Below, one piece after another: positions 1 to 41,359 of a DNA stretch of 41,794 nucleotides. The stretch comes from Bacilli bacterium (GTDB lineage Bacteria; Bacillota_I; Bacilli_A; RF39; UBA660). The notes beneath the pieces are model-generated. The model was not told the DNA's origin. It did not search any database and saw only the letters and a program-made list of their open reading frames with translations. The DNA lies in assembly GCA_017404385.1 (NCBI GenBank), contig JAFRCK010000025.1:1-41794 (forward strand). The letters run 5' to 3'. Each line of letters begins with the position of its first letter. The first letter of the stretch is position 1. A program made the translations under genes and the position numbers.

Positions 1-310
1 AAAGTTTGTTAAATCAATTTCTGTTAAGCTACTACAACTTTGAAACATATATGATGTATTTGTTAATGAATCTCCTCTAAAGTTACTTAAATCTAGTTCA
101 CTTAATCCACTACATCCATTAAACATGGATGCCATTGTTGTAGTATTTGGAGATATTATTGTATTCAAATCTATTGATGTAACACTAGTAAATCCACTAA
201 ACATAGATGATGCATTTGCATTTAATTCTGGATCATCATCTTGTGTCCACCAGTAGATTGTACCTTCTTCATACCATGCATATATTGGTACATTAGAAGT
301 TGCTGTTGAA
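1..310 (-). repeat. Second BspA/DUF285 block (cut by window edge)
   Basis: The frame encodes a YAWYEE-YWWT lead-in (290-240) followed by SMFSG, MFNGC and MFQSC units with LDLS or IDL strands. It matches the block at 3540-5540 and continues past base 1. Confidence 0.85.
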
Positions 311-3300
311 ACTACATTACTACTATTTCTATTAGCTTTTATAGGTGCTGTATTTGATTTTACTATTGAAGTTATATTTTCTTTTGAGCCAGCTAATGAT
401 GTTAATTTGCTATTAACATTTGAACCAGTATCAAATGTAGATTCAGCAGGAAGCCATTGAGCATATAATGTAACTATATCATTATTAACATTTGATAGTT
501 TGTTAACTATAGCTTCATCAGAATAAGAATTACCAGTACCATCTGGTTCTGTATTCCAACCTACAAATCCATAATCGAATCTTGTGAATGTGTTTTCTGG
601 GAGAGTTGCTTTAATTCCATATATCATATCTAAATCAGGTATAGATCCTTCACCATCATTAGAATCAAATCTTATTTTATATCTATTTCTTGTTACTAAA
701 CCATAATATGTTACATCATCATTTATTTCAGTATCATCCTCTAATAAAGTACCATTTTCTTTAGCTGTATAGAAGCCAAAATTAATTCCTTCTTCAAATA
801 GAATATTTGGTACAGTTGTTATTGTATATCTACTAGTTAAATCTTTAGTTATCTTAAAGTTACCAAGTTTAACATTTGTAGTTTCACCATCTGCGGCATA
901 TGCAAATATAAATGATAAATATGTTGTAGTTCCTGTTGCCTTAAATGTTATTGTTCTATGTTGTATATCAGGATTTGCTTGTCTAGGTAAATAACTAGAT
1001 GTTATTGAACTTATAGACGAAGAATTTGTTGGCTCCGATTTTAAAGCCATCATACCAATTCCTTCATACGAACTATAGCCATTATAACCATTTGGATTAT
1101 AATAATCTACCTCAAATTTATAAGTTTCTCCTACTTCTGTTCTTACTGGAATATATATATTTTCCCATGTTCCACTTAAACCATTAACAGTTATATCATT
1201 CATACCAGTTGAAGAATCATATGTTATATTAAATTGATTTTCACCTATAAATTTCCATGATTGGACATCATTTACTTCATTGAAATCATAAGTTAAGACA
1301 TAAGACCATTGTGCATATAACGTTTGACCATTTAATTCTTCAAAATCATTCATTATTTCTTCTTCAGTATAATATGTAGTACCTGAACCATCTTGTGCAG
1401 TATTCCATCCAGTAAATGATTTGTTTGTTCTTGTTGGTACAGTATATTCAGCATCTTGACTATATTTACTATCAGCTGATACTACAGCATAATATCCATA
1501 ATAAGTACTACTAGAATCAGAATAGAATGCAAATGTTACAGTATCACCTTCTACATCAAATTCTACAGTTGTAGTAGTATTATTACTACCATTATAAGTA
1601 TATAATTGACCAGCACTCATATTTTTTGAAACATTGCCTGAATATTGTCCTTTAAATACATATACATAATCATAACTTGCTTCAGTTCCATATGTTAATT
1701 TAACATGTACTGATGATGCTCCTGGGATAGTTACTACCTCTTTTGTCGCTAAATTATTTACGTAACTACCATTTTGAACTCCATCATTACTTATATTTGA
1801 AGTATGAGAATACTCAGTTTTATTTTGTTTATATACAGTATATGTAATAGAATTACTTGTTTCTCCATTAAAACTGCCACCATTTGCATTGTAATTTACA
1901 TTATATATAGTAGGAACATTAACAGTTACTTCAACTTCTTTTGTTATTCCAGATACATTACCAGTAATCTTAATAGTAGTTGTACCTCCAGATATACCAG
2001 TTAATACGCCATTTGAATCAACTGTAACAATTGTTTCATCTTCTGATGAAATTGTATAAGGTTCCATATCTTCTGGTCCAGTTACAGTTATTGTTGAAGT
2101 TTCATCTAAATCCATTGTTACACTACTTGGAGTTATAGTAGCATCATCAATAGATTTAACCCATTTTGCATATATTGTTGTATCACTTGTTATTAGTGTA
2201 GTGAAATCAAACTTAGTTGTATATGTATCATCTGTATACCAATCATCAAACACGTATCCATCTTTTGTTGGATTCAATAATGGTTTTATAGCTAATCCAC
2301 CATAGTTAACTATTTGATCTGATACTATTGAACCTCCATCAGTATTAAATTTTACTGTAAATTCTGATATAGTTCCAATTCTAAATGCAGGTGAAACTCC
2401 GTAAACATGTTCAGCACTAGGCTGACTGAATCCTCCAGTATCATAAATAACAAGGAAATTACTAGGAAGAGCACTATACGCTGTACGAAGCCACCATGTT
2501 CCTGCCACACCTGATAAATCTTTTTTAATTCTCCTTGAATCTGCTAAATCAACATCAGTTACTACAGGATCAACATAGTAATCAAGTGTTCTTGTATCTG
2601 TTAATACATTTCTCTTATTATCATATGAAAGATCAAGTCCAACTTCTCTTAATGAAAGTAAATATATCTTATTCTTAGTTTTATCATCAGCTGTTATATT
2701 TGGGGAAACTCCGCCTGATCCACTACCGGATACTATTGGATATGTTCTAATTATTACATTTTGCAAATCACTTGGTAACTTATTATAGAATGTACTATTT
2801 AAATAAATCACCATGTTTGTTGAAGCCCAACCACCAGCATTTGAATTTTTAGAATTCATGGAACCGGATCCAACAATATCGGAAAATTCTATTACAATAC
2901 CACAACCAGTTTGTGAATATCCTTCTACTTCACATACTTCTGGAGTACTAGTATTAGCTAATCTTACAGTATACGATTCATCAGTACCGTCATTATCCAT
3001 ATCCATTGGAACTTCCTTAGTACAACCAACTGCATAATATTCTGAATTATTTTCTAGATTTGTTTTAATTGTTGACCAAGAATCTGTACTAAATCCTTTA
3101 CATAAATCTATAAACTTAGCATAAATAATTGTATCACTTGTTATTGGTGTAGTGAAATCAAACTTAGTTGTATATGTATCATCTGTATACCAATCATCAA
3201 ATTTATATAGTTCTTTAATTGGATTCGTTGCTGGTCTTGTTGCAGTACTACCATAATTAATTGTTTGAGAAGGTACTTCAGATCCTCCATCTATATCAAA

Positions 3301-6300
3301 TGAAACTGTTACTTTCTTTATATATCTAGCATAAATATTTATATTATCCTGTGGAACATACTCTTCAGTTATCTCTATGCCATCTACATTTGAAGAATAC
3401 CAACCTACAAAATCATATCCTTCTTTTGTTACTACTGGCAATGAGCCAACTCGATTTCCTTTAGTAATATATCTCTTAAATAATATTTTATTATTGTCTT
3501 TAAATGTAATTTCGAATTTTGAAGAAATATCTGTAGCCGTAAAGTAACCCGGATATAATTCTCCACCATCATAATGCGCATATTCTTTATCTATATGGTT
3601 GGCGTCATATGTTGTACCTAAACCTCCAACAACACTTTCACATCCAAGGAACATATCTCCTGAAGAAGTTACTTGATTTACTACAAAATCATCGCTGACA
3701 TATACTGTTGTCAATCCTGAACAATTTTTAAACATATTTGACATATTTTCTACATTTCTTGTATCAAAATCAGATAAGTCTAGTTCCGTTAAATTAGGAC
3801 TATTTTCAAATAATGAAATCATACTAGTAACGCTTGAAGTATCAACATTTTTTAATGAAATTGTTTCAACACTTCCTGCGTCTGAAAAATATGCTATCAT
3901 ATTCTTTCCAAAAACAGAATTATCAAATATTATTGTTTTTAGTGAAGGAGTTGTAGAGATTCCTAAGTTAGAAAATAAACCTGAAGGAAGATTATTAGTA
4001 AAATTAAAATTACTCATATTTAATGTTTCTAACGATGTACATCCTGAAATAAAACCTCCAAAACCAATTACATTACGTGTATCAAACATGCTTAAATCTA
4101 ATTCCGTTAACGAACTACAATCACCGAACATATAATACAAGTTAGTCACATTGCTAGTATTAAATGAACTTAAATCTAGTGACTTTAAATTTGTACATCC
4201 TTGGAACATCCAATTCATACTTGTAGTTAGACTCGTATCAACATTTTTCAATGAAATAGTTTCAATTGTTGAATAATTATGAAATGTATTAAACATATCT
4301 TTTCCAAAAATTGCATTATCTAATATTACTGTTTTCAAAGATGCATCAGTTGGTACACCCATGCTAGCCAATAAAGGTAATGAGGTATTTTTTCTCAAAT
4401 CAAAATTACTCATATTTAATGTTTCTAATGATGTACATCCAGAAAGAAATCCTCCAAAAGAAGTTACATTGCTTGTATTAAAACTACTTAAATCTAGTTC
4501 TGTTAGACTACTACATCCTGAAAACATAACGACCATATTCGTAACATTTTCTGTATCTAAATCACTTAAATCTAATGTTGTTAAACTAGGGCAATCTTTA
4601 AACATACCATACATATCAGTTATAGTACTTGTGTTTACATTATCAAGTATTATTTCTTCTAATTGTGGTAATCCATGACTAAAGAAACCAGACAATGATG
4701 TCATTCCACTAAAATCCCAATTACTCATATCTATTGTTTTTAAATTAGAATTACCTGCAAACAAACTATTCATATTTGTTACATTATGTGTATCTAAATC
4801 ACTTAAATCTATTGATTCAAGATTAATACATCCTGCAAACATTTGTGCAATATTTGTTAAATTTTCTGTATCTAAATCACTTAAATCTATTGATTTAAGA
4901 TTACTACCTACAAATAAATTCGACATATTTGTTACATTATGTGTATCAAATTTACTTAAATCTAATTCAGTAAAGGCAGCACTATTGAACATATTATTCA
5001 TATCAACTAAACTATCTGTTTCGATATCTCCAAAGTCTACAGTTTGTATATGTGAACCTGTAAACATATATGACATATCTTCTACTTTACTAAAATCATT
5101 ATTACTTAAATCCAAGGAAGGAACTGTTGTTACGCAGAACATATAAGACATGTCAGTTACATTACTTGTATTTAATGATGAAATATCTAATTCATCATAA
5201 GTAGAGCCATAGAACATACCTTTTGTATTTGTTAGATTATCTGAATTAAATATAGATAAATCTAGAGTATTACAATTATTAATATAAGCAAACATATAAG
5301 AACTATCTTCGTTTAAATAAACATTATTTGTATCAGTCCACCAATATAATGTTCCATTATCAAACCAAGCATATATTGGTAATAATGAATCATCTGATGA
5401 AATAATATTATCCTCAGTCATTAAAGATATATCAGGAGTTCCAACATATTTTGTAATTGAAGTTATATTTGAATCAGCATATGAATATGATGTTATATTT
5501 GCTTCTGGATTTGCTAATTTCTTCATTTTTACATTAACAGTTAGACCTTCATCAAATTCTGCAGTTGCTTCTCCCCATTTTGGATATAAAATAAGATCAC
5601 TATCAACTATATAATTTTTATCTATTTTTATACCATCTACTAAACCTTTATACCATCCTACTACTACATCTTCATCTTTTGTTCCAGTTGGAAGTACTCC
5701 AATTGGTTGACCTTCATAAACATATCTAGTTGTTTCGGAAATAGTTCCACCATTAGCATTAAATGTTACTTTATATCTAGTTGCTGATATAACTTCAACC
5801 TCAATAGTTTTAGTTATACCGGATTCATTACCAGTTACAGTTAATGTAGTCTCACCCATGCCTACAGCTGTTACTGTATTTCCTGAAACAGTTGCTACAT
5901 CAGTATCATTTGATGTAATCGTATAACTTTCCATATCTTCTGGACCAGTTATAGTAATTGTTCTTTCGTCACCAATTTTCATTGCTACTCTAATTGGAGT
6001 TATATTAGCTTGATCCATTGTTGAATAATATTGTGCGTAGTAAGTAACATTACCTGTTATTACTGTATCACTTGTTACTTCAGTACCTCCAGTAGCTGCC
6101 GTATACCAACCCTTTGTAATTGAGTTAGATCTATTGGCGGTTGGTAAATTACCTAAAGTATTATTTGCTGTTACTGTTCTAGTTGTTTCTGAAGTATTAC
6201 CACCATTAGGATTAAATGTAACAGTATAAGTACTTGGTGCTGGTGTTGTTTTTTCTAACTTAATTGTATAGTAAGTTGATCCTGAAATAGTTTCTTGGCC

Positions 6301-9300
6301 TAATACTTTTTGTGAATCAGTTTCTATTTCAGTCATCTTAGTTTCATCAGTATCTACTGAGACTGTTGGTGTATTACCAGTATTACTTGTTTTACCAACA
6401 TGATATGTAATACCTTTAATAATACCATCATAGAAATTATATGTATTATTAGCAACTATACCATAAGTCTTACCTTGAATTACTGGAGATTCTTGATTAA
6501 TATTTCCATCTTTTGTACCTATATTTAATGTACCTTTTTCATTATATATTGCATAAGTACCAGTAGATATAACAGTACCACTATTTAAATTAATAATACC
6601 ATTATTTAAGTTATGTAATGCCGCTCTTTGAGTTGATTCAGAACTTAAATAACAATTTCCATTAATAGTTAAATTACCACCATCATTATATAATGCTTGT
6701 TTTGATCCTGTCTTTGTAACGATAATACTTACATTTTCCATAACTAATGTACCAGTAGAATTATTATTAATAGCTCCTTGTGCTACATTAGTTGAAATAG
6801 TACCATTATACAGTTTTAATGAACCATTATTAATAACTACATTTGCATTTCCATTATTGCTAAGTGTATGATTTTGTAAATCAAGTATTACTCTCTTAGT
6901 ATCTGCTATTTCAGCCTTTTCAGCTGTATCTTTTAATAATACTACTTCTGTTTCTTCACCAGTTGTAGGAACTGCTTTTATAGCATTAACTAAAGAAGTA
7001 TAGTATGTATTACCTATTCTTGCTACCTTATCTTGTGGTGCCCAAATTGCATATAAAGTAATATTTGTATTTCTAGTTATTTCTTCTTCATCAAAATAGC
7101 TATCACCAGTTCCATTTGATTCAGTATTCCATGAATCAAAAATACTATCACTCTTAGTGTATAAATTCTTACTTAATTTAGTCGTAACATTCTTAGTAAT
7201 AGTTTGAGGTAACATATCTCCTGTTCCACCATTTGCATCAAATGTTACTTCATATGATACTGAATCATATATAGGTGTTACAGTTTTACTTTCAGTTAAT
7301 GTAAATGTATATGGATTAGATGTTTCTCCATCACTCCAACTAGTAAATACATAACCTTCTTTATCATTTGCTTTAATAGAAACAATAGTACCATATGGAT
7401 ATGTTCCTGCTGGTACATTTGAAGTAATATCTGTATTATTATCAAATGATAATGTATACATATTTCTTGTATAAACATATATTACTTCTGTACTTCCATC
7501 TCCTGCGATTGTTACTGTTTGAACACTTGGTGATGTGAAACCGGCATATGTTTTTACTGCTGGGGTTACAGAAGAATCTGTTGTTCCAAATCTTTCTTCT
7601 ACTTCATCTAAATATGTAGTTAAATCTAAATTTTGTTTTCTATGAATAATTTTATATAAAGTATTAGTATTTGGTATATATAAAGGTTTAATTGTAACAT
7701 TACCAGTTAAGTTAAATGTATATGGGTTACTTATTTCTTCGTTTGACCATTTATCAAATGTATAACCAGCTTTTTGATTTGCTGTTATAGTTATTTCTTT
7801 ACCATATGGATATTCTCCAGCTGGTGTTGATGTTGTTATATCTGTACTTCCATCATATGATAAAGTATACATTTCTCTATTATAGTTATATGTTACTACT
7901 GTACTTCCATCACTTGCTATAGTTACTGTTTTTGATGCTGGAGATATGAAACCGGTATATGTTTTAACTACTGGTGTTATAGAAGAACCAGATATACCAG
8001 TTAAGTTTTCTGTTTCTTCTATATCATATCCATCTAATGTGATTTTTTGTTTTTGATGTATAACTTTATATGATACTTCAGTTGATTCTTCTTCATAAAT
8101 TGGAGAAATACTTAAATCACTTTCTAAAGTAAATGTATATGGGTTTGAAACTTCTCCATTAGTCCAACCAGTAAATGTATAACCTTGTACTTCACCTGCT
8201 GTTAATGATATTTCTGTTCCATATGGATAATCTCCATTTTCTTTAGTTGATGTAACATTAACTGTATCACCTAATGTAAATGTATATATCTCTCTATCAT
8301 AGTTATATATAACTTCTGTATTACCATTTCCGCTTATTGTCGTTGTTTGAACACTTGGTGATGTGTAACCAATATATGATTTAACAGCTGGTGTTATAGA
8401 TGCATCTGTTGTTCCAGTTAGATTTTCTGTTTCTTCTATATCATATCCATCTAATGTGATTTTTTGTTTTCTATGAACTACTTTATATGGAGTATTTGTT
8501 TTTGCTTTCCATGTTGCGTATAAAGTTATTTCTCCCGAAGTAACTAAATTAACAATTTCTTCTTCATCAGAATATGAATCTCCTAATCCATCTGCTTTTG
8601 TATTCCATCCATCAAAATCATATCCCGATCTTACAAAAGTATTTTTATCTAAAGTATCTGATTCATCATATGTCATTTCTTGATTTGACATAGAACCAAC
8701 TCCACCGTTTGAATCAAATACAATTTCGTAATTATTAGCTTCATAAATCGGTTTAATTGTAGTATTATTTACTAAATTAAATACTAAAGTAATACTTGTT
8801 GAATCATTACTCCATTTTTTAAATGTATAACCTTCTTTTATTTTAGCAATTGCAGTTATCTCTGTTTCATATAAATATGAACCTTCTGGTGTAGAATTTA
8901 TCATATCTATATTTTCTTTATCTTCATAGTTAATAGAATAACTCTTTCTTGTGTACACGTATATAACTTCTGTACTTCCATCAGCATCTATATTAACAGT
9001 TTGTGTACTTGGGCTTATAAAACCTGTATAGTTTCTTACTGATGGTGTTACTTCTGTATCTGTAACACCTGTGAAATTTTCTATTTCCTCTTCATAAGTT
9101 ATTAAATCTAAATTTTGTTTTCTATGTTTTACTTTATAAGGTGTTGTTGTACTTGATGTATATACTGGACTTATTACTACATCTCCCTCTAAAGTAAATG
9201 TAATTGTTTTTTCTAATTCACCATTACTCCAATTACTGAAATTATATCCTTGTTTTTCTTTTGCTGTTAATATTACAGTAGTTCCATATGGATATTCTCC

Positions 9301-12300
9301 TTCTGGAATATTAGATTCAATATATTCATCATCATTAAATGTTAATGTATATTTTTCTCTGTTGTATGTATATACTACTTCTGTACTTCCATCTCCATTT
9401 ATTGTAACAGTCTTTGTACTTGGCAAAATGAAGCCAGTATAATTTCTTACTGATGGTGTTACTTCTGTATCTGTAACACCTGTGAAATTTTCAATTTCCT
9501 CATCATAACCATCTAATGATAATTTTTGTTTCTTATGAATAACTTTATATGGAGTATCAGTTCTTGCCTCATATTCAAGTGATAGAGTTATTATTTCATC
9601 TATTTCAAATCTTCTTTCATAATTTGTTATTCCATCACTCCAACTGAAATCATATCCTACTCTTTCTTCTGCTATTAATACTATCTCTGTACCATATGGA
9701 TATTCTCCATTTGCTGTACTTCCATCTTTTAAATGTGATCTATCAGCTATATTTAATTCATATTTTTCTCTTTCATATGTATATGTTACTGATGCTAGTC
9801 CATCTGCTGTTATTGTTATATTTTGTGCTTCTGGTGTTACAAATCCTGTTCTTGGTTTTAATGCTGCTTCTACTATATCTCCTGTTGTTCCTACAGATGT
9901 AACTTCTTCTACTTCAAATGTATTATCTAATTTTCTATATCTATGTATTACTTTATATTCTGTATTCTCACTATTTGTATATATTGGATTAACTGTTATA
10001 TCTGAAGCTCCTATTTTTACTGTTATTGTCTTTGTTGTTTCTCCTGTTGACCATCCTGCAAAATCATATCCTTGTCTATCTTTTGCTGTTAATTCTATTT
10101 CTTCTTCATAATAATAACTTCCACTCTTATCTTCTACTACATACTCTGAATTTGTTATTGTTAATTGATACTTATTTCTCTTATATTCATAAATTACTTC
10201 TGTACTTCCATCTCCATTTACTGTTACTGTTTTAGTATTTGGACTTATAAATCCTTCATATGTTTTTACTGATGGTGTTACTTCTGTATCTGTTGTTCCT
10301 ATTAAGTTTTCTGTTTCTTTTGTCTCATATGTTTCATCTATTTTTTGTGTTTTATGTATTACTTTATATGGAGTATCAGTATTTGCCGAATATAATGGTT
10401 TTATTTCTAGATTTTGATCTAAGTTGAAGGTATATGGATTTTCATCACTTCCATTTGTCCATTCATCAAATGTATATCCAGGTCTTTCTTTAGCAGTAAT
10501 TGTTACTTCTGTACCATATGGATAATTTCCTTCTGGTAAAGATGATTCTATATATTCATTATCTTCAAAATCTAATGAATACATTTCTCTTGTATAAATA
10601 TATACTACTTCTGTTTTTCCATTTCCATTTATTGTTACTGTCTTTGGTTCTGGTGATACAAATCCAGTATAATTTCTTACTGATGGTGTTACTTCTGCAT
10701 CTGTTGTACCTTTTAAGTTTTCAACCTCTTCATCATACTCTTCTGAATTTAATTTTTGCTTTTTGTGAATGACTTTATATGGAGTGTCTGTATTTGCCGA
10801 ATAAGTTGGCTTAATTGTTATACTTTCATTAATACTGAAGGTATATGGATTATCAACACTACCATTTGTCCATTCTACAAATGTATAACCTTCTTTTTCT
10901 TTAGCAGTTATAGTTACTTCTGTTCCATAAGGATAATTTCCTTCTGGTAAAGATGATTCAATGTATTCATTATCTTCAAAGTCTAATGAATATATTATTC
11001 TTGTATAAATATATACTACTTCTGTTTTTCCATTACCATTTATTGTTATTGTCTTTGGTTCTGGTGATACAAATCCAGTATAATTTCTTACTGATGGTGT
11101 TACTTCTGCATCTGTTGTACCTTTTAAGTTTTCAACCTCTTCATCATACTCTTCTGAATTTAATTTTTGTTTCTTGTGGATAACTTTATATGCAGTGTCT
11201 ATATTTGCTTTCCACTGTGCATACAATACTATATTTCCACTTGTTTTTAAATTCTTTACTGATGCTTCATCTTCATAAGAAGTCCCTGTTCCATCTTCCT
11301 TTGTATTCCATCCATCAAAACTATATCCTTCTTTTGTAAACGTATTCTTTCTTAAGTTACTAGTAATATCATATGTCATTTCTTGATCAGCCATACTACC
11401 AGTTCCACTTGTAGGATTATAAACTATTGTATACTTGTTAGCTTCATATACTGGATATATTGTTATATCGCCCGTTAATGGGAATACTGTAGGATTAACA
11501 TCACTACCATTACTCCAATGATTAAAAGTATATCCTTCTTTTTCTTTTGCTTTTACTGTTATTGGTGTTTCATACACATAACTTCCTTCTTCTGTTGAAT
11601 TATCTAAATCTATATCTTCCACATCACTCATACTAAATTCAAATGAATCTCTATTATATGTATAAGTTACTTTTGAACTTCCATCAGCATTAATTGTTAT
11701 TTCTTTTGGTTCTGGTAATATAAATCCTTCCAAGTTTCTTACAGCTGGTGTTACTTTTGAATCTGTTGGACCATATAATAATTCTGTATCTTCTGTATAT
11801 GAACTTAAATCTTCTAATTTTTGTATTCTATGGATTACACTATATTTTGTTCCTTCATTTGGTGAATAATGAGTTGTATAAGATAAATCTCCTGTAGTTC
11901 CCGAAGAAACTGTTACTTGAGTTTGAAGATTTTCTCCATTACTTCCAGTCCATCCTGCAAATGTATAACCTGTTTTAGTTGGATTTTTTAAAGTAAATTC
12001 ACTTGTTACGGTATAAGTATCTGGGTTACCTGTTACTGTTCCTCCATCTAGGTTATAAGTTATATTATAGATTATCACATCATAATGTGCCTCTAAAGTA
12101 ACATCTTCATCTTTAGTATAAAGCGTATCTTCTTCAATCTTTGATTCACCTAAATACCATCCTACAAAATTATAACCAACTTTTGATGTTGTAGGTAACA
12201 CACTATATGCTTCTTGATATCTTCTTGTTACTGGTAATACTGCAGTTCCACCCTTACTATCAAAAGTAATTGTATATTCATTAGCAATATATTGAGCATA

Positions 12301-14070
12301 TAAAGTTATACTTTCATTAGTTGTTATATTTTTTACTTTTTCTTTATTTTCATATGATTGCCCACTTCCATCAGCCTTTGTATTCCAGCCTATAAAGCTA
12401 TTTCCTTTTTTAGTAAATGTGTTTTCTTTTAAATTAAATTCTTCATCATATTTTGCTGACTGGTTAGACATTACGCCTTCTCCACCATTTGAGTTAAATA
12501 CAATTTCATATGTTTTTGCTTCATATACTGGTTTTATAGTTACGTTGTTCTTAATTGGAAAATTAATTGTTTTTGTTGTTAATCCATTATTCCAACCAAC
12601 AAAATTATATCCAACTTTATCTTTTGCTACTAATGTAATTTCTGTTTCATATGGATAACTTCCCTCTTGTGTACTCAAAGTCAAATCAATATTTTCTTTA
12701 TTTTCTAAAACTAATTCATAGTTTTTTCTTGTATATTTATATTCTAATTCGCTAGTACCATCTTGTTTTATAACTAATTCTTTTTTATTAGGGCTATCAA
12801 AACCATCATATGATTTTGTATTAGGTTTAAGTGTTGTTCCATAAGGAGCACTTAATTCATCTGTATCAGACAATTCAAATGATCCATCTAGTTTTTGTTT
12901 TTTATGATATACTTTATAACCTACTACTTCATTTTCTGAATAATTAGCTAAAAATTGTTTTTTGCCTGTAGATCCTTTTTCTATTACAACACTTAGTTCT
13001 GGAACATCACCGTTACTTCCAGTCCATCCAACAAATGTATAACCATTCTTTACTGGATTATTTAACGAGAAAGTTGCTGTTTCAATTGTATATACGTTTG
13101 GATTACTTGTAGTAACTGATCCACCATTTAAATTATAACTTATTGAATATTCAACAATAATGTATTTAGCTTCTAATGTTACATCTTTAGTTAAATCAAC
13201 TATACTTTCACTTGTTATTTCCTTGTTTCCAAGATACCAACCTGAAAAAGTATAACCTGTTTTATTTCCTACTGGCAAATCACCATATTTTTCTTTATAT
13301 GTTACTACTTTACTAGTTTTTGGCATTCCATTTTTATAATCAAATGTTACAGTATACTGTTTCTTTTCTTCTGGTGTTACATTATTATCACTACTATCTG
13401 AATTATTATTGTTATTGTTATTATCATCTGTAGATGTATCAGGATTATTATCAGCTTTTTTTTCATATATTGGATATAATACTGTTCCATCTTTTATCGA
13501 ATAAGATTCATTTACTTTATATTTAACTACTTGTGAACCTTCTAAATCTGTATATCCCTTTAATTCATATCCTTCTTTTTCTTCTTTTAAAACTGGTATA
13601 GTTACTTTTTCATTTCCGTAACTTGATATTGTTTCATCGCCTATTTTAATTTCCTTTAATTTTCCATAGTAGAACTTTATATTAAATGGTTTATCTATTT
13701 TTTTTGTTGTTTTGATAGTGAACTTAAACTTTGTATCTTTTCCTGCAGGTAATAATTTAATAAATTTTTCAAAACTTATATTTTTATTACTTATTTCAGT
13801 TTTGTATAGATAGTAATCATCTCCTAGATAGTTATGAATTGTAATAGTATAAGTGTACTCTTTATTTGATGATAATTCATTTGCTACAAATATTGTATCA
13901 TCATTAAAACTATCAACCTGTTCGTTGATATTTATAATTTTTATTCCTTCTGCTATTTCTTTTTTAGTAGTGCATCCTTTAAATAATAATAGTAATAATG
14001 TTATTATTATTGCTATTAAAAAAACAATTTTTAGTACAGTTTTTTTAGTACCTTTTTTATTATCATTCAT
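1..14070 (-). CDS. Giant modular repeat surface protein (C-terminus beyond window)
   Basis: The frame is open from ATG 14070 to base 1: 4690 codons without a stop, so the protein is longer still. Residues 12-33 are a hydrophobic segment ending in a Cys (FKGC), a poor lipobox, so it is either a lipoprotein signal or a membrane anchor. Next come a beta-rich domain (about 38-200), an Asn/Asp/Ser linker (about 202-230), InlB/Flg_new repeats with the GY.F.GWY and ITLYA.W signatures, eleven MucBP-like modules (12930-7500), a beta-helix-like stretch (7020-6260), a Big_2 domain (6000-5790), a BspA/DUF285 block (5300-3540), a DUF6273-like domain (3125-2390, WWLR and GVSPAFRI motifs), a second Big_2 (2150-1930), a CUB-like and a carbohydrate-binding-like beta domain (1905-830), and a second BspA block (400-1). 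It has its own promoter and a GAGGTAA ribosome site. The likely role is adhesion or surface interaction. No LPXTG or other anchor is visible because the end is missing. Confidence 0.93.
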   Translation of the reverse strand, partial: MNDNKKGTKKTVLKIVFLIAIIITLLLLLFKGCTTKKEIAEGIKIININEQVDSFNDDTIFVANELSSNKEYTYTITIHNYLGDDYYLYKTEISNKNISFEKFIKLLPAGKDTKFKFTIKTTKKIDKPFNIKFYYGKLKEIKIGDETISSYGNEKVTIPVLKEEKEGYELKGYTDLEGSQVVKYKVNESYSIKDGTVLYPIYEKKADNNPDTSTDDNNNNNNNSDSSDNNVTPEEKKQYTVTFDYKNGMPKTSKVVTYKEKYGDLPVGNKTGYTFSGWYLGNKEITSESIVDLTKDVTLEAKYIIVEYSISYNLNGGSVTTSNPNVYTIETATFSLNNPVKNGYTFVGWTGSNGDVPELSVVIEKGSTGKKQFLANYSENEVVGYKVYHKKQKLDGSFELSDTDELSAPYGTTLKPNTKSYDGFDSPNKKELVIKQDGTSELEYKYTRKNYELVLENKENIDLTLSTQEGSYPYETEITLVAKDKVGYNFVGWNNGLTTKTINFPIKNNVTIKPVYEAKTYEIVFNSNGGEGVMSNQSAKYDEEFNLKENTFTKKGNSFIGWNTKADGSGQSYENKEKVKNITTNESITLYAQYIANEYTITFDSKGGTAVLPVTRRYQEAYSVLPTTSKVGYNFVGWYLGESKIEEDTLYTKDEDVTLEAHYDVIIYNITYNLDGGTVTGNPDTYTVTSEFTLKNPTKTGYTFAGWTGSNGENLQTQVTVSSGTTGDLSYTTHYSPNEGTKYSVIHRIQKLEDLSSYTEDTELLYGPTDSKVTPAVRNLEGFILPEPKEITINADGSSKVTYTYNRDSFEFSMSDVEDIDLDNSTEEGSYVYETPITVKAKEKEGYTFNHWSNGSDVNPTVFPLTGDITIYPVYEANKYTIVYNPTSGTGSMADQEMTYDITSNLRKNTFTKEGYSFDGWNTKEDGTGTSYEDEASVKNLKTSGNIVLYAQWKANIDTAYKVIHKKQKLNSEEYDEEVENLKGTTDAEVTPSVRNYTGFVSPEPKTITINGNGKTEVVYIYTRIIYSLDFEDNEYIESSLPEGNYPYGTEVTITAKEKEGYTFVEWTNGSVDNPYTFSINESITIKPTYSANTDTPYKVIHKKQKLNSEEYDEEVENLKGTTDAEVTPSVRNYTGFVSPEPKTVTINGNGKTEVVYIYTREMYSLDFEDNEYIESSLPEGNYPYGTEVTITAKERPGYTFDEWTNGSDENPYTFNLDQNLEIKPLYSANTDTPYKVIHKTQKIDETYETKETENLIGTTDTEVTPSVKTYEGFISPNTKTVTVNGDGSTEVIYEYKRNKYQLTITNSEYVVEDKSGSYYYEEEIELTAKDRQGYDFAGWSTGETTKTITVKIGASDITVNPIYTNSENTEYKVIHRYRKLDNTFEVEEVTSVGTTGDIVEAALKPRTGFVTPEAQNITITADGLASVTYTYEREKYELNIADRSHLKDGSTANGEYPYGTEIVLIAEERVGYDFSWSDGITNYERRFEIDEIITLSLEYEARTDTPYKVIHKKQKLSLDGYDEEIENFTGVTDTEVTPSVRNYTGFILPSTKTVTINGDGSTEVVYTYNREKYTLTFNDDEYIESNIPEGEYPYGTTVILTAKEKQGYNFSNWSNGELEKTITFTLEGDVVISPVYTSSTTTPYKVKHRKQNLDLITYEEEIENFTGVTDTEVTPSVRNYTGFISPSTQTVNIDADGSTEVIYVYTRKSYSINYEDKENIDMINSTPEGSYLYETEITAIAKIKEGYTFKKWSNDSTSITLVFNLVNNTTIKPIYEANNYEIVFDSNGGVGSMSNQEMTYDESDTLDKNTFVRSGYDFDGWNTKADGLGDSYSDEEEIVNLVTSGEITLYATWKAKTNTPYKVVHRKQKITLDGYDIEETENLTGTTDASITPAVKSYIGYTSPSVQTTTISGNGNTEVIYNYDREIYTFTLGDTVNVTSTKENGDYPYGTEISLTAGEVQGYTFTGWTNGEVSNPYTFTLESDLSISPIYEEESTEVSYKVIHQKQKITLDGYDIEETENLTGISGSSITPVVKTYTGFISPASKTVTIASDGSTVVTYNYNREMYTLSYDGSTDITTSTPAGEYPYGKEITITANQKAGYTFDKWSNEEISNPYTFNLTGNVTIKPLYIPNTNTLYKIIHRKQNLDLTTYLDEVEERFGTTDSSVTPAVKTYAGFTSPSVQTVTIAGDGSTEVIYVYTRNMYTLSFDNNTDITSNVPAGTYPYGTIVSIKANDKEGYVFTSWSDGETSNPYTFTLTESKTVTPIYDSVSYEVTFDANGGTGDMLPQTITKNVTTKLSKNLYTKSDSIFDSWNTESNGTGDSYFDEEEITRNTNITLYAIWAPQDKVARIGNTYYTSLVNAIKAVPTTGEETEVVLLKDTAEKAEIADTKRVILDLQNHTLSNNGNANVVINNGSLKLYNGTISTNVAQGAINNNSTGTLVMENVSIIVTKTGSKQALYNDGGNLTINGNCYLSSESTQRAALHNLNNGIINLNSGTVISTGTYAIYNEKGTLNIGTKDGNINQESPVIQGKTYGIVANNTYNFYDGIIKGITYHVGKTSNTGNTPTVSVDTDETKMTEIETDSQKVLGQETISGSTYYTIKLEKTTPAPSTYTVTFNPNGGNTSETTRTVTANNTLGNLPTANRSNSITKGWYTAATGGTEVTSDTVITGNVTYYAQYYSTMDQANITPIRVAMKIGDERTITITGPEDMESYTITSNDTDVATVSGNTVTAVGMGETTLTVTGNESGITKTIEVEVISATRYKVTFNANGGTISETTRYVYEGQPIGVLPTGTKDEDVVVGWYKGLVDGIKIDKNYIVDSDLILYPKWGEATAEFDEGLTVNVKMKKLANPEANITSYSYADSNITSITKYVGTPDISLMTEDNIISSDDSLLPIYAWFDNGTLYWWTDTNNVYLNEDSSYMFAYINNCNTLDLSIFNSDNLTNTKGMFYGSTYDELDISSLNTSNVTDMSYMFCVTTVPSLDLSNNDFSKVEDMSYMFTGSHIQTVDFGDIETDSLVDMNNMFNSAAFTELDLSKFDTHNVTNMSNLFVGSNLKSIDLSDLDTENLTNIAQMFAGCINLESIDLSDLDTHNVTNMNSLFAGNSNLKTIDMSNWDFSGMTSLSGFFSHGLPQLEEIILDNVNTSTITDMYGMFKDCPSLTTLDLSDLDTENVTNMVVMFSGCSSLTELDLSSFNTSNVTSFGGFLSGCTSLETLNMSNFDLRKNTSLPLLASMGVPTDASLKTVILDNAIFGKDMFNTFHNYSTIETISLKNVDTSLTTSMNWMFQGCTNLKSLDLSSFNTSNVTNLYYMFGDCSSLTELDLSMFDTRNVIGFGGFISGCTSLETLNMSNFNFTNNLPSGLFSNLGISTTPSLKTIIFDNSVFGKNMIAYFSDAGSVETISLKNVDTSSVTSMISLFENSPNLTELDLSDFDTRNVENMSNMFKNCSGLTTVYVSDDFVVNQVTSSGDMFLGCESVVGGLGTTYDANHIDKEYAHYDGGELYPGYFTATDISSKFEITFKDNNKILFKRYITKGNRVGSLPVVTKEGYDFVGWYSSNVDGIEITEEYVPQDNINIYARYIKKVTVSFDIDGGSEVPSQTINYGSTATRPATNPIKELYKFDDWYTDDTYTTKFDFTTPITSDTIIYAKFIDLCKGFSTDSWSTIKTNLENNSEYYAVGCTKEVPMDMDNDGTDESYTVRLANTSTPEVCEVEGYSQTGCGIVIEFSDIVGSGSMNSKNSNAGGWASTNMVIYLNSTFYNKLPSDLQNVIIRTYPIVSGSGSGGVSPNITADDKTKNKIYLLSLREVGLDLSYDNKRNVLTDTRTLDYYVDPVVTDVDLADSRRIKKDLSGVAGTWWLRTAYSALPSNFLVIYDTGGFSQPSAEHVYGVSPAFRIGTISEFTVKFNTDGGSIVSDQIVNYGGLAIKPLLNPTKDGYVFDDWYTDDTYTTKFDFTTLITSDTTIYAKWVKSIDDATITPSSVTMDLDETSTITVTGPEDMEPYTISSEDETIVTVDSNGVLTGISGGTTTIKITGNVSGITKEVEVTVNVPTIYNVNYNANGGSFNGETSNSITYTVYKQNKTEYSHTSNISNDGVQNGSYVNNLATKEVVTIPGASSVHVKLTYGTEASYDYVYVFKGQYSGNVSKNMSAGQLYTYNGSNNTTTTVEFDVEGDTVTFAFYSDSSSTYYGYYAVVSADSKYSQDAEYTVPTRTNKSFTGWNTAQDGSGTTYYTEEEIMNDFEELNGQTLYAQWSYVLTYDFNEVNDVQSWKFIGENQFNITYDSSTGMNDITVNGLSGTWENIYIPVRTEVGETYKFEVDYYNPNGYNGYSSYEGIGMMALKSEPTNSSSISSITSSYLPRQANPDIQHRTITFKATGTTTYLSFIFAYAADGETTNVKLGNFKITKDLTSRYTITTVPNILFEEGINFGFYTAKENGTLLEDDTEINDDVTYYGLVTRNRYKIRFDSNDGEGSIPDLDMIYGIKATLPENTFTRFDYGFVGWNTEPDGTGNSYSDEAIVNKLSNVNNDIVTLYAQWLPAESTFDTGSNVNSKLTSLAGSKENITSIVKSNTAPIKANRNSSNVVSTATSNVPIYAWYEEGTIYWWTQDDDPELNANASSMFSGFTSVTSIDLNTIISPNTTTMASMFNGCSGLSELDLSNFRGDSLTNTSYMFQSCSSLTEIDLTNF
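2178..3201 (-). repeat. Pair of 73-nt near-identical repeats
   Basis: 2178-2250 and 3129-3201 match over 73 nt with one mismatch (at 2195). The offset is 951 nt, or 317 codons. Both copies encode the end of an InlB-type repeat (FDDWYTDDTYTTKFDFTT) and bracket the DUF6273-like domain. Confidence 0.85.
3540..5540 (-). repeat. BspA/DUF285 leucine-rich repeat block
   Basis: In the giant protein this stretch encodes more than ten units of about 22-26 residues of the form L..LDLS.F.T..VT.M..MF..C, the signature of BspA-type (DUF285) surface leucine-rich repeats. It is introduced near 5380-5330 by a YAWF-YWWT lead-in, which also precedes the second block at the left edge of the window. Confidence 0.9.
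7500..12930 (-). repeat. Eleven MucBP-like modules in a higher-order array
   Basis: Each module opens with a YKV.HKKQ or YKV.HRKQ motif and ends with a Y.YTR strand. These openings lie near 12900, 11830, 11180, 10770, 10360, 9950, 9540, 9130, 8480, 8060 and 7650. The usual spacing is about 403-416 nt (near 137 codons) and pairs a MucBP-like unit with a shorter strand set carrying a YPYGTE motif and a GY.F..W motif. Longer gaps (12900-11830, 11830-11180 and 9130-8480) hold an extra classical InlB-type repeat of about 80 residues. The tandem copies are diverged, apart from one recent duplication listed separately. Confidence 0.85.
10639..11169 (-). repeat. Recent in-frame duplication, 411-nt offset
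   Basis: Bases 10639-10758 are identical over 120 nt to 11050-11169. The offset is 411 nt, exactly 137 codons. Similarity continues on both sides with few differences, while the other modules of the array are clearly more diverged. This points to a recent module duplication or gene conversion. Confidence 0.9.
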
Positions 14071-14091: not shown

Positions 14092-14120
14092 ATTATAACA
14101 TTTTTCAAGTACTTTCTCAA
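14092..14120 (-). promoter_or_regulatory. Promoter of the giant gene
   Basis: On the minus strand TTGAGA (14115-14120), a 17-nt spacer and TATAAT (14092-14097) in the extended form TGTTATAAT. It lies 21 nt before ATG 14070, with GAGGTAA between. The gene is therefore probably transcribed separately from the gene upstream. Confidence 0.75.
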
Positions 14121-17647: not shown

Positions 17648-17667
17648 TTGTTATGGGAAGTGATATT

Positions 17668-18612
17668 ATGGCTGGAACTATTACACATGCATACTTTGCA
17701 ATGGATGTTTTTAACAAGTTAGATAATAATATTAAAAAGAATTTAAGTAATTATCAGAATAATTTAAGAACATTCGCACAAGGACATGATATATTTGATT
17801 TTACTTCAGGAGATGGTCATTTATTTCATACAAAGAATACAGATAAATTTTTTATTAATTTAATTAAATATACAAAAGAAAAAGAACTATATAATAATGG
17901 AGAAATACTTTCTTTTATATATGGCTATATATGTCATTATGTTTTAGATAAAAATATTCATCCATATGTTATCTACATTAGCGGTGCTTATGATAAAAAT
18001 AGAAAAAAAGAAACTAAAAAATATAGATGTAAACATGCTGAAATGGAAACTTTTTTAGATTGTTATATGGTAAAAATAAAAGAGAAAGAAAAAGAAAAAG
18101 AATTTAAATCTCATAAATTTTGTTTAGAACCAAATAAGTTTTCTAAAGAACTAAATGATACTATTGATTATACTTTTAATAAAACATATAAATTAAAAAA
18201 TGCCAGCAAAAAATACTATAGAGGCATAAAAAATATGCATTTCTTATATATATTATTAAGAAATGATAAGCATAAAATTAAATATACCATGTATAAAATA
18301 GTAGACAAGATTACACCAATAGGATTCTATAAATTTGCACCCATTTCTTTTACATATAATGACAATTTAAGAGAATATTTAAATGAATATAATGAAGAAT
18401 GGATAAACCCAATAGATCTTAATGAAAAGAATCATACTTCATTCTTAGAAATCTACAACAACTCAATAAAAGAAGCAACAAAAATTATAAAACAAGTCAA
18501 TGACTATTTTAACAACAAGGATATAGATTTAACGAAAGTATTTGATAATAGTTCTTTTGTTACAGGTAGAAATTGCAATATAAAAACAAAACCAAAGTAT
18601 TTTAAAAAGTAA
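17668..18612 (+). CDS. Zinc-dependent phospholipase C-like protein
   Basis: 314 aa from ATG 17668. An upstream in-frame ATG (17653) is less likely because the TATAAT box ends only 6 nt before it. The protein opens with MAGTITHAYFA and carries GHDIFDF, IYGYICHYVLDKNIHPY and a CKHAEMETFLD motif. These histidines, aspartates and glutamates fit the metal-site pattern of the zinc-dependent phospholipase C fold (PF00882). There is no signal peptide, so it is probably cytoplasmic, unlike secreted alpha-toxin types. Substrate unknown; the family is widespread in Firmicutes as a cytoplasmic protein of unknown role. It converges with pgeF, and a shared terminator lies between. Confidence 0.75.
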   Translation: MAGTITHAYFAMDVFNKLDNNIKKNLSNYQNNLRTFAQGHDIFDFTSGDGHLFHTKNTDKFFINLIKYTKEKELYNNGEILSFIYGYICHYVLDKNIHPYVIYISGAYDKNRKKETKKYRCKHAEMETFLDCYMVKIKEKEKEKEFKSHKFCLEPNKFSKELNDTIDYTFNKTYKLKNASKKYYRGIKNMHFLYILLRNDKHKIKYTMYKIVDKITPIGFYKFAPISFTYNDNLREYLNEYNEEWINPIDLNEKNHTSFLEIYNNSIKEATKIIKQVNDYFNNKDIDLTKVFDNSSFVTGRNCNIKTKPKYFKK

Positions 18613-20220: not shown

Positions 20221-20637
20221 TTATCTCTTTGAGAATTGTGGTGCTTTTCTTGCTTTCTTTAATCCTGGTTTCTTTCTTTCTTTAATTCTAGAATCTCTAG
20301 TAATCATACCTTTAGCTTTTAGAATTTTTCTGAAAGAAGAAGCAGAAGTTGGATCAGTATTCTTATCATATTCTAATAATGCTTTTGTAATACCTAATCT
20401 AACTGCTCCTGCTTGACCTGAGAATCCTCCACCTTTTACTTCTACTGTAATATCAAATTTTTCTTCAGTACCAGTAAATACTAGAGGTTGTTTTAAATCC
20501 ATAACCAAAGTTGGGAATGGAAAATATTCATTAACATCTCTTCCGTTAACTACTATGTTACCTTTACCGGAAACTAAAGTAACTTTAGCAATTGAAGATT
20601 TACGATGTCCTGTACCTTGATATACTTTATTTGCCAT
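20221..20637 (-). CDS. rpsI: 30S ribosomal protein S9
   Basis: 138 aa, close to the family length of 130. The marks are [12 protein letters not shown] at the start, [19 protein letters not shown] in the middle and the invariant C-terminal QFSKR that reaches the ribosomal P site. It follows rplM by 10 nt and has an AGGAGG ribosome site, as in nearly all bacteria. Confidence 0.99.
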
Positions 20638-20647
20638 TTTAACCCTC

Positions 20648-21082
20648 CTATAAGTTTAATTCCTTAGGTTGTTGAGCTTGTTGCTTATGTTCTGAACCAG
20701 CATATACAAATAATTTCTTATTCATAGCTCTACCTAATCTTCCTTTTGGAAGCATTCCTTTGATAGCTCTTTGAAGCATTTCTTCAGGATATTTTTCTCT
20801 CATTTCTCTAGCAGTTCTTTCTCTTAATCCTCCTGGGTAATCACTATGATTATAATACATCTTATCATCTAGCTTATTACCAGTTAAATTAACTTTTGAA
20901 GCATTGATTATAATTACATAATCTCCACAATCAACATTTGGTGTATAAATTGCTTTGTGTTTTCCACGAAGAATAGTTGCGGCTTTAGATGCTACACGAC
21001 CTAAACTTTTGCCTTCAGCATCAATAACGAACCATTCACGCTTTACATCTGACTTTTTTGCCATAAATGTATTCATTTTCAT
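20648..21082 (-). CDS. rplM: 50S ribosomal protein L13
   Basis: 144 aa from ATG 21082; a second ATG at 21076 gives MNTFMAKK, the more usual family start. Both have a fair ribosome site (AAGGA for the first, AAAGGG for the second). Recognisable are [27 protein letters not shown], the D-Y-V-I-I-N-A segment and the MLPKGRLGR motif. L13 is a primary 23S rRNA binder and heads the L13-S9 operon. The leader carries a hairpin consistent with L13-type autoregulation. Confidence 0.99.
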
Positions 21083-27346: not shown

Positions 27347-28240
27347 TTATATACCTCCTTTTTTATTTCTATGAGAATCCTGTCCTAAAACATGATATGA
27401 ATCCATTATTGTAAAAAATGCATTCTCATCTATTTCTTTAATCCCTTCTTTTGCTTTAAAATATTCAATAGTTGGGACAACTGCCATTATTACCTTCTGT
27501 TTGCTATCAGAATAACCACCATGTGCATCTAGTACTGTTACTCCTCTAGATAAGTTATTCATAATATAATCCTTAACTTCATCAACCTTTGATGTAACAA
27601 TAAAGAATGTTTTATTTTCAGATACTGATAACATAATTTTATCAGTTACAATATTAATGATATATATTATTATTAAAGCATATAGTAAAATTCTCCATCC
27701 AAATGTATATCCGCCAATTAAAACTATTATTCCATTAACAATCAAAAATGCATTACCAGTAGATATTTTTAGTTTTTTTGAAATGATATTTATAACTGTA
27801 TCAACTCCACCTGTAGTAAGTCCAGCACGTCCAATTAAACCTGTAGCAAATCCTATTAAAACAGAGCCACATATTACAATAAGCATCATATCATCCGTTG
27901 GAACTGGTAAACTAACATTCTTTGTTAACTCTACAAATAATGGAAATAATAAGGATCCAATTAATGAATTAAAAGCATATCTTTTTCCTAAAAATATATA
28001 CCCTAGAATAAATGCTATTATCGATATTGTCATTATAGTTATCGATGGATCTATATAATCTTTTATAATCATGGCAATACCACCAGACCCACCATATACT
28101 AAATTGTTAGGTACAAAAAATACATTATATGCAATCGAATATATCAATGAACCAATTATTAACAAAATATATCTTTTAACAATATTTTTATTTTCAATTT
28201 CATATATTATATCTCTTTTTGCCTTATCAATTATTTTCAT
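27347..28240 (-). CDS. YitT-family membrane protein (DUF161 + DUF2179)
   Basis: 297 aa. Five to six membrane segments in the first 200 residues, with NVFFVPNNLVYGGSGGIAMI and GRAGLTTGGVDTV, the marks of YitT/DUF161. The soluble tail (about 210-290) has the DUF2179 pattern, with ITSKVDEVKDYIMNNLSRGVT and DSYHVLGQ near the end. The function of the family is unknown. The ATG overlaps the prfB stop by 4 nt (28237-28240) and has a GGGAGGTAC site inside prfB. Confidence 0.9.
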   Translation of the reverse strand: MKIIDKAKRDIIYEIENKNIVKRYILLIIGSLIYSIAYNVFFVPNNLVYGGSGGIAMIIKDYIDPSITIMTISIIAFILGYIFLGKRYAFNSLIGSLLFPLFVELTKNVSLPVPTDDMMLIVICGSVLIGFATGLIGRAGLTTGGVDTVINIISKKLKISTGNAFLIVNGIIVLIGGYTFGWRILLYALIIIYIINIVTDKIMLSVSENKTFFIVTSKVDEVKDYIMNNLSRGVTVLDAHGGYSDSKQKVIMAVVPTIEYFKAKEGIKEIDENAFFTIMDSYHVLGQDSHRNKKGGI

Positions 28241-29323
28241 TCTTTTGTACCTCCCTTTAAGTATTCTTCTATAAAATCATCAATATAACCATCCATTACT
28301 TTATATACATCACTTTTTTCATAGTTAGTTCTATGATCCTTAACCATTGAATAAGGATGCATCACATAACTTCTAATTTGTGAACCAAAATTAATATCAC
28401 TTTGATTATTTAATTGATTTTCTTTTTCTTTTCTTTTATTCTCTTCTTCTAAAGCAAATAACTTTGCTTTTAATACTTTCATAGCTAGTTCTTTATTCTT
28501 TAACTGACTTCTTTCATTTTGACATGTAACTATTATTCCAGTTGGTAAATGAGTAATACGAACAGCTGAATCTGTTGTATTAACTCCCTGGCCACCTGCT
28601 CCTGTGGAACGATATACATCAATTCTTAAATCTTGTTCTTTAATATCGATAGTAACGGTATCATCTATTTCAGGGGTTACTTCAACAGAAGCAAATGAAG
28701 TGTGTCTTCTTTTATTAGAATCAAATGGTGAAATTCTAACAAGTCTATGAACTCCTCTTTCACATTTAAGATAACCATAAGCATTATTTCCTTTAACTAA
28801 TACTGTAACTCTTTTAATACCAGCTTCTTCACCATCTAGCTGATCAATAATTTCATACTTATAATTATTTCTTTCACACCATCTTTCATACATTCTAAGA
28901 AGCATACTTACCCAATCACAACTTTCTGTTCCACCTGCACCTGAATGTAGTTCCATGATAGCATTATTCTTATCATACTTACCTGATAACTTCGTTTCTA
29001 ACTCTAATTTAGTTATTCTTAAATCCAAATCCTGAATTTCATTTTGAATTGCTTCTAGATAAGATTCATCCAAATCTATCAATTCTTTATATGATAGTAA
29101 TTCTTGTTTAATATTAAATATATTTTCTATTGTTCTTTTTTTATCGCCTAATTCTTTTAAAATTTCTGAAGAATTATCTTTATTCCAAAAACTTGGATCT
29201 AATGTTTCTTTTTCTAATGATTCTACTTCTTTTTGTTTCAAATCAATGTCAAAGTAACCTCCAAATTAAATCAACTTTATCTAACAATCCATCTATTTTT
29301 ATTTTTACTTCCTTATTATCCAT
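28237..29323 (-). CDS. prfB: Peptide chain release factor 2 (programmed +1 frameshift)
   Basis: The start is ATG 29323 with a GGTGA site. After 24 codons the frame meets TGA at 29249-29251 directly after CTT. GGAGG (29258-29262) lies 3 nt before the CTT, and a +1 shift leads into GAC and the long frame, giving 361 aa. Residues 198-200 are SPF, which reads UGA and UAA, and 243-245 are GGQ, which triggers peptide release. The presence of RF2, and its control by its own UGA, show that UGA is a stop in this organism. The gene begins the prfB-yitT-ftsEX-M23 operon. Confidence 0.97.
29249..29262 (-). promoter_or_regulatory. RF2 programmed frameshift site
   Basis: GGAGG, 3-nt spacer, CTT TGA C: the canonical slippery arrangement with an internal ribosome-like site at the short spacing that pushes the +1 shift. 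Confidence 0.95.
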
Positions 29324-35026: not shown

Positions 35027-35039
35027 CACTTCCATTATT

Positions 35040-40408: not shown

Positions 40409-41359
40409 CTATTTTTTCAATATTTTTCCAACTTCTTCTTTATGTTTTGGAAGTAATCCTTCTTCTTCAGGATTATCTGAATAATAAATAGTTTCAACTA
40501 AATGGTCTCTTACTCTGTCTAAATCAGACTTTTCCCAATGCATTGCTTTGGTATCGTCATCATCTATAACACAATAATGTTCTATTTCTGGATGCATTTC
40601 TAAGTATTTTAGAATTTCTAAATCTTTCCACATTGATATATAAGAGTTTTCTCCAGTTTTGATTGTAACATTAGGAGTTCTTCCTATACATTCTATACCA
40701 TATTTTTTAAAGAATCGAAATATATCATTTACCCAAGATCCTTCTCCGACCTCTAATGTTTCTTCATCAATTGCATCTTTTGCGGATGCTTCAATTACAA
40801 CCTTACAATTATATTCTTTACAAATATCTGCAAGTATTTTGATTCTTCTTTCAATATCTTCCATTGATTTATAATGAACTGTATCTAACACTCCATCAAA
40901 ATCTAGAAATATTACATTTGTCTTTAGTCTCTCTTTTTTATAAATTGTTTCTAAATTATCTTTATAATCTTCATATAGATAATCTTCAAAGTCAATATAA
41001 TCTATTACTTTATCTATCCTTTGAAGATAACTAGAATCTATTTGGCTACTTGGAATTGCATATTCTCCTACTTGTTCTTCTTTTTTCATAAAGACTCTAT
41101 CTAAATATCTTCCACTTCCTACATATTCAGCAAGTATTTCATCTGGAATATCATATGTACAAATATAATGATCTTTCGTAACATTCAGATAGAAAATACT
41201 TCCATAATCTTTATAAAAATGAAGATACTTTATATTCGGTTTATATTCATGATTATTTAATTTAGAATCATTTGTACATGTTCTACCAATATCACTAAAA
41301 GGAATACCATTTATAATTTTGTCTAATTCTTCTTTTTTACAAATTCGATATACAACCAT
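40409..41359 (-). CDS. ART-like N-terminal domain fused to HAD phosphatase domain
   Basis: 316 aa. Residues 1-110 (MVVYRICKKEELDKI start, Arg5, KYLHFYK, CTYDIP, EYAIPSSQ with Glu99) resemble a family of small proteins that I believe has an ADP-ribosyltransferase-like fold. Residues 147-270 form a HAD domain: DFDGVLDT (Asp153 and Asp155, the nucleophile and acid-base pair), and CVIDDDD (263-269) as motif IV, of the HAD type found in RNA-repair and polymorphic conflict proteins. The HAD part could act on a phosphorylated or ADP-ribosylated target or on RNA ends. ATG 41359 has a GGAG site and TATAAT at 41386-41391. The function is inference. Confidence 0.6.
   Translation of the reverse strand: MVVYRICKKEELDKIINGIPFSDIGRTCTNDSKLNNHEYKPNIKYLHFYKDYGSIFYLNVTKDHYICTYDIPDEILAEYVGSGRYLDRVFMKKEEQVGEYAIPSSQIDSSYLQRIDKVIDYIDFEDYLYEDYKDNLETIYKKERLKTNVIFLDFDGVLDTVHYKSMEDIERRIKILADICKEYNCKVVIEASAKDAIDEETLEVGEGSWVNDIFRFFKKYGIECIGRTPNVTIKTGENSYISMWKDLEILKYLEMHPEIEHYCVIDDDDTKAMHWEKSDLDRVRDHLVETIYYSDNPEEEGLLPKHKEEVGKILKK

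Follow-up and report, generated by a model that had tools for sequence, protein, structure and literature searches.

The stretch of DNA analysed here (the window) is the entire contig C9, 41,794 bp in length, of a draft genome that comprises 1,298,072 bp in 43 contigs and is 93.5% complete. Position 1 of the window is the end of the contig, and the minus strand from 14070 to 1 carries a single frame of 4690 codons, which is opened by an ATG at 14070 and has an open 3' end in an ORF listing that allows open ends. This frame had been described beforehand as unbroken, and re-translation yielded 0 stops, as compared to 483 and 675 stops in the two remaining minus frames. Given the base composition of this DNA, a stop-free run of 4690 codons has a chance of approximately 10^-198, the GC contents at codon positions 1, 2, and 3 of the frame are 0.375, 0.389, and 0.099, respectively, and no frameshift was found anywhere between 14070 and 1. 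The ribosome-binding site AGAGG is positioned 9 nt 5' of the ATG, and the sequence TTGAGA-17-TATAAT, with 11 of 12 consensus matches and a TG ahead of the second hexamer, lies further 5'; across the region, promoter-like sites are not in excess. The frame is the 5' part of a genuine gene that has normal expression signals and encodes a giant cell-surface adhesin-like protein, which supports the original prediction of a single very long surface-protein gene running past the window. It has no stop because contig C9 ends mid-gene, inside a second leucine-rich array; the frame is cut by the contig edge and is not endless. The features of the locus are as follows.

1 to 14070, minus strand: 5' part of the giant surface-protein gene, 4690 codons, ATG at 14070, contig end at 1
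14092 to 14120, minus strand: sigma-70-like promoter TTGAGA-17-TATAAT
13975 to 14070, minus strand: N-terminal charged tail and membrane helix (residues 12-30, by hydropathy) followed by K/R-G-C, kept in genome G008
13456 to 13974, minus strand: N-terminal extracellular domain (residues 33-205), with no Pfam family above cut-off
7051 to 13350, minus strand: stalk-like region of InlB B-repeats (Flg_new, Flg_new_2) and nine MucBP-like/InlB units of about 137 aa
10366 to 11190, minus strand: two adjoining 411-bp units, 89.5% identical in DNA sequence with a 120-bp exact run (repeat comparison)
6391 to 7023, minus strand: beta-helix-like region (residues 2350-2560), recognised by eye from a repeated NNG/TLNI pattern
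3535 to 5562, minus strand: first DUF285/TIGR02167 (PARCEL, BspA-type leucine-rich) repeat region (Pfam, NCBIfam)
4772 to 4964: tandem 78-bp unit within the first DUF285 region
2371 to 3102, minus strand: DUF6273 domain (residues 3732-3898 in the Pfam alignment)
1948 to 2142, minus strand: Big_2 (bacterial Ig-like) match, below cut-off (19.0 versus 22.8 bits)
841 to 1905, minus strand: two conserved regions rich in beta structure, which resemble CUB and sugar-binding domains by eye only
1 to 438, minus strand: first part of another DUF285 array, which the contig end truncates and which likely continues on contig C43

A listing of closed ORFs shows only small shadows at this locus, as had been anticipated, with one ORF of at least 100 aa (105 aa). 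The accompanying claim that a normal ORF caller would miss the frame applies only to callers that demand closed ORFs, since a listing with open ends reports the gene directly; metagenome callers such as Prodigal include genes truncated at a contig edge in their default output. No RNA families or tRNAs were found in the window, and a search of phages with the N-terminal part of the giant protein gave no match.

Elsewhere on the contig, the prfB-like gene (release factor 2; 28237-29241) has a classical +1 frameshift site, CTT TGA C, at 29248-29254 on the minus strand, which sits after a short leader; the ORF list holds only the second part of this gene, with a false TTG start. Two ribosomal-protein genes of less than 150 aa each, rplM and rpsI by eye, are located at 20221-21082 (minus), and a possible L13-type leader 5' of these genes had no Rfam match at the gathering score. 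The sole plus-strand ORF of at least 150 aa (17653-18612) matches a Zn-dependent phospholipase C domain with 51.8 bits. The minus strand further encodes a 704-aa protein (32921-35035) that contains eight repeats of the treble-clef zinc-finger type (DUF4379) and matches families of phage HNH/homing endonucleases, and a protein (40409-41359) whose HAD domain is of the 'Swiss Army Knife RNA repair' type.

Four independent Pfam families exceed their curated cut-offs in the giant frame: Flg_new (PF09479; 595 bits, cut-off 27, 16 stretches), Flg_new_2 (9 stretches), DUF285 (260.7 bits, cut-off 25, 6 stretches), and DUF6273 (1 stretch). The PARCEL repeat model TIGR02167 of NCBIfam scores 234.6 bits (cut-off 30) in 10 stretches. 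At least six domain classes had been proposed from the letters; these four families bear out part of that count, whereas LRR_4 passes the Pfam cut-off but overlies the DUF285 region, and Big_2 and MucBP remain below theirs. The frame contains some 25 InlB B-type repeats, nine of which are paired with a MucBP-like half in units of about 137 aa that each open with a YKVIHKKQKL-like motif. The fold predicted for the aligned unit has a pLDDT of 92.9; the first half of the model (residues 1-65) lies near MucBP and MUB/YwfG repeats (Z of approximately 5-7, all below 8), and the second half near the InlB B-repeat 2y5p (Z below 8). PF06458 (MucBP) reached 16.6 versus 23 bits in one unit scanned alone and was not reported for the whole frame, and the unit had no sequence match in the PDB; its profile matches to multicystatin and actinidin look like chance and were discarded. 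No Pfam family was found in the beta-helix-like residues 2350-2560 or in the region 841-1905; the CUB-like and sugar-binding-like reading of the latter was set aside, as it was made by eye only and the AlphaFold model was too poor (pLDDT of 40.7). The best reading of the product is a surface adhesin built from PARCEL/BspA-type leucine-rich and InlB/MucBP repeats that is membrane-anchored at its N-terminus.

The hydrophobic N-terminal helix is of the signal-anchor type, with a hydropathy of 3.17 in the C9 protein and 3.35 in G008. It is followed by F-K-G-C in the C9 protein and by L-R-G-C in G008, and the identical place of the Cys in both could point to a non-canonical lipoprotein that is cleaved before this residue rather than spanning the membrane. 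This alternative is rather unlikely, as, by the lipobox rules, the charged residue at position -2 and the hydrophobic stretch of 18-19 residues fit a membrane anchor better. Reading of the sequences revealed no canonical lipobox before the Cys in either protein.

A homologous N-terminus was found in just one of the 11 other genomes of the genus, G008 (63% identity over 250 aa). The G008 ortholog is a frame of 5894 codons that is collinear with the C9 frame: residues 1-3583 of the C9 protein align with G008 residues 1-3822 at 42.8% identity, and residues 3904-4690 with G008 residues 5058-5844 at 69.0% identity. The G008 frame itself runs off its contig C1, 50 residues past the match to the end of C9 and within the same leucine-rich-repeat array. 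Ka/Ks values versus G008 are 0.27 for the N-terminus and 0.43 for residues 3904-4690 (0.46 for the tail on C43, see below), and values of 0.27-0.43 imply that selection has maintained the protein sequence even as it changes rapidly. The comparison thereby indicates that the C9 frame codes for protein and is subject to purifying selection.

The frame had also been regarded as easy to misassemble. One near-identical pair of units does occur, and the 411-bp pair at 10366-11190 is a recent duplication and a possible point of collapse; its 120-bp exact run is the longest exact internal repeat found, exact repeats of 150 bp are absent from the frame, and the G008 ortholog is collinear. An assembly chimera, or collapsed or expanded repeats, such that no protein with the sequence as read exists, would be in keeping with a draft genome in 43 contigs, with the 89.5% identity and the exact run of this pair, and with the break of contig C9 inside a repeat array. 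Nevertheless, the assembly of a second species holds an ortholog that is collinear along almost the entire frame, and neither a 150-bp exact repeat nor a frameshift is present, which renders this explanation highly improbable. The risk of misassembly inside the frame is small.

A candidate for the missing 3' part is found on contig C43, which opens mid-frame (locus L037:1-1788) and runs for 595 codons to a stop. This tail consists of, in order, a DUF285 array, one InlB repeat, wall-binding repeats, and an acidic Asn-rich linker, and ends in KFILPKEAYNLRRYFMGVFN, with the conserved C-terminal motif KF[IV]LPKEAYNLRRYFMG. The match to Choline_bind_1 (PF01473; 3 stretches) is marginal at 20.8 versus 20.5 bits, and was over the cut-off on a second scan; among PDB entries, the wall repeats also match a choline-binding protein of the pneumococcus (E of 0.0009). 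A search for an LPXTG anchor had been suggested beforehand. Neither the likely C-terminus on C43 nor its counterpart in G008 carries LPXTG, a result that bears on the C9 protein only if the two contigs are joined correctly; the C43 tail has no C-terminal membrane helix, and the bin has four sortase matches.

Several observations suggest that the C9 gene probably continues on C43 after a gap. In the bin, DUF285 is restricted to C9, including the partial copy at its very end, and the start of C43. Strong homologs of the N-terminal part and of the tail were found in the present bin (G000) and G008 only, among the relatives and family genomes searched, and the two parts are split alike in G008, where the N-terminal part runs off C1 and the tail homolog opens contig C16 (78% identity over residues 14-488 and 66% over 262-594). 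Moreover, the G008 N-terminal frame holds a block of DUF285, InlB, and wall repeats that resembles C43 (42% over 413 aa), and therefore both sets of modules occur in one frame. Conversely, C43 could encode the C-terminal part of a separate surface protein, paralogous to that of C9; the C9 gene would then end on a contig that the bin lacks, perhaps with a membrane helix at the C-terminus, as in the C15 protein. The genus has several paralogous giant genes per genome, C9 and C43 do not overlap (the longest shared string is 15 bp), and the gene order does not confirm the join because the genes 3' of the tail differ between G000 (DinD-like, ychF, rpsF, ssb) and G008 (lipoprotein, DUF1016, mrnC). 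The restriction of DUF285, the co-distribution of both parts, and the C43-like block in the G008 frame nevertheless make this alternative unlikely. A gene order near oriC (parA/parB on C9, ychF-rpsF-ssb-dnaB on C43) was considered as support for the join and dropped, as the order in G008 differs, and C15, which holds the one further gene that begins mid-frame at a contig edge, was rejected as the continuation of C9, being 62% identical to a closed, separate 4996-aa gene of G008. With C43 as its continuation, the C9 protein would measure at least approximately 5,285 aa, a length that is well supported although not proven.

The C9 protein fits among the large repeat-built surface proteins of host-associated Gram-positives, and no new mechanism is needed. 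With the PARCEL/DUF285 (TIGR02167) surface proteins of Mollicutes and others (PMC2996958) it shares tandem repeats of about 25-26 aa, and its host is a small-genome relative of the Mollicutes, but in the C9 protein the PARCELs are part of a far larger protein. Dyad symmetry in the coding DNA belongs to the PARCEL definition (PMC2996958); in a simple test that counts exact matches only, C9 had 13 exact reverse-complement k-mers (k=9) versus 31 in codon shuffles. Proteins with the internalin B-repeat (Flg_new/List_Bact_rpt) likewise correspond to C9 in its many above-cut-off copies and in the InlB B-repeat-like half of the fold, whereas the NCBIfam models of InlA and InlH score far below their cut-offs, and the C9 protein is therefore not an internalin. 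The giants of Apilactobacillus kunkeei (3,000-8,000 aa; PMC12863079) are similarly multi-domain, occur several per small genome, and vary between relatives, but they have an N-terminal beta-solenoid where the C9 protein has a membrane helix with InlB, MucBP, and PARCEL modules. The 7,651-aa giant adhesin of Mobiluncus mulieris (PMC10619420) resembles the C9 protein in size class and repeat-rod plan; that adhesin has 51 cross-linked Ig-like domains. Within the genus, the giants of the type encoded on C15, closed in G005, G006, G007, G008, G010, and G011, have InlB repeats, a similar size, and, in the closed members, a hydrophobic N-terminal helix as in the C9 protein; unlike the C43 tail, these giants have a membrane helix at their C-terminus, and the C15 protein of the present bin has no DUF285 match. 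Huge bacterial proteins in general have been described (PMC11573180), and a narrow literature search found no paper on giant proteins of metagenome-assembled Bacilli.

The size and domain variety of the protein had been called extreme, a view that is not supported for the genus, where InlB repeats occur in 12 of 12 genomes and frames of more than 4,000 aa in 10 of 12. Measured from stop to stop, frames closed inside contigs were found in six genomes (G005:C8, 4250 aa; G006:C2, 4360; G007:C16, 4275; G008:C6, 4996; G010:C5, 4309; G011:C6, 4721). As InlB-repeat frames of this size are present in 10 of 12 genomes and several are closed, at about 4,250-5,000 aa, giant size is a trait of the lineage. 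Other very large frames with DUF285-like arrays (C9, G008:C1, G005:C2, G001:C7) run off their contigs. Five genes of at least 1,300 codons in the bin (C9 with C43, C15, C35, C22, and C26) amount to approximately 48 kb, or 3.7% of its DNA. The C15 gene (L038:2-14494) has 4830 codons with its 5' end cut by the contig edge, and encodes InlB repeats, Laminin_G_3, and a C-terminal membrane helix.

The nearest named relatives of the host bacterium by DnaB are all metagenome-assembled genomes of uncultured Bacilli (at best 90% identity to RGIG5784 from sheep ileum, 88% to RUG13038, and 65% to Candidatus Aphodocola), which come from the guts of sheep, cattle, and other hosts; the host is thus probably an RF39-like, gut-dwelling bacterium of ruminants. 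A peptidoglycan wall is predicted to be kept in most RF39 species (PMC10868615).

Taken together, we consider it likely that the locus holds the first 4690 codons of a giant adhesin-like gene that has its probable tail on C43. Judged from the domain types, the N-terminal helix would insert the exported protein in the membrane and anchor it there, and the InlB/MucBP array would form an extended stalk with possible binding to mucin or glycans, and the leucine-rich/PARCEL, DUF6273, and other beta domains would bind ligands; an adhesive role is suggested by the same domain types. The C-terminal wall-binding repeats, with putative choline or teichoic acid binding, would fix the far end to the wall of the same cell or to an adjacent cell. 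Duplication of repeats, as exemplified by the 411-bp pair, is a likely source of length change. Tentatively, the protein could be attached at both ends, by the N-terminal membrane helix at one end and by the wall-binding repeats with the conserved LPKEAYNLRRYFMG motif at the other; this fast-evolving protein, which would reach at least 5,285 aa in the present bin and 7,080 aa or more in the relative, might conceivably leave sortase unused despite the sortases of the bin.

Uncultured Bacilli that probably live in the gut and have genomes of approximately 1 Mb devote a notable share of their DNA to giant surface proteins, the true lengths and anchors of which are missed because such genes are often cut at the ends of draft contigs, as is the case for C9, C15, G008:C1, G005:C2, and G001:C7. 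Resolving these cut genes would show how such bacteria hold on to mucus, food particles, and other cells.
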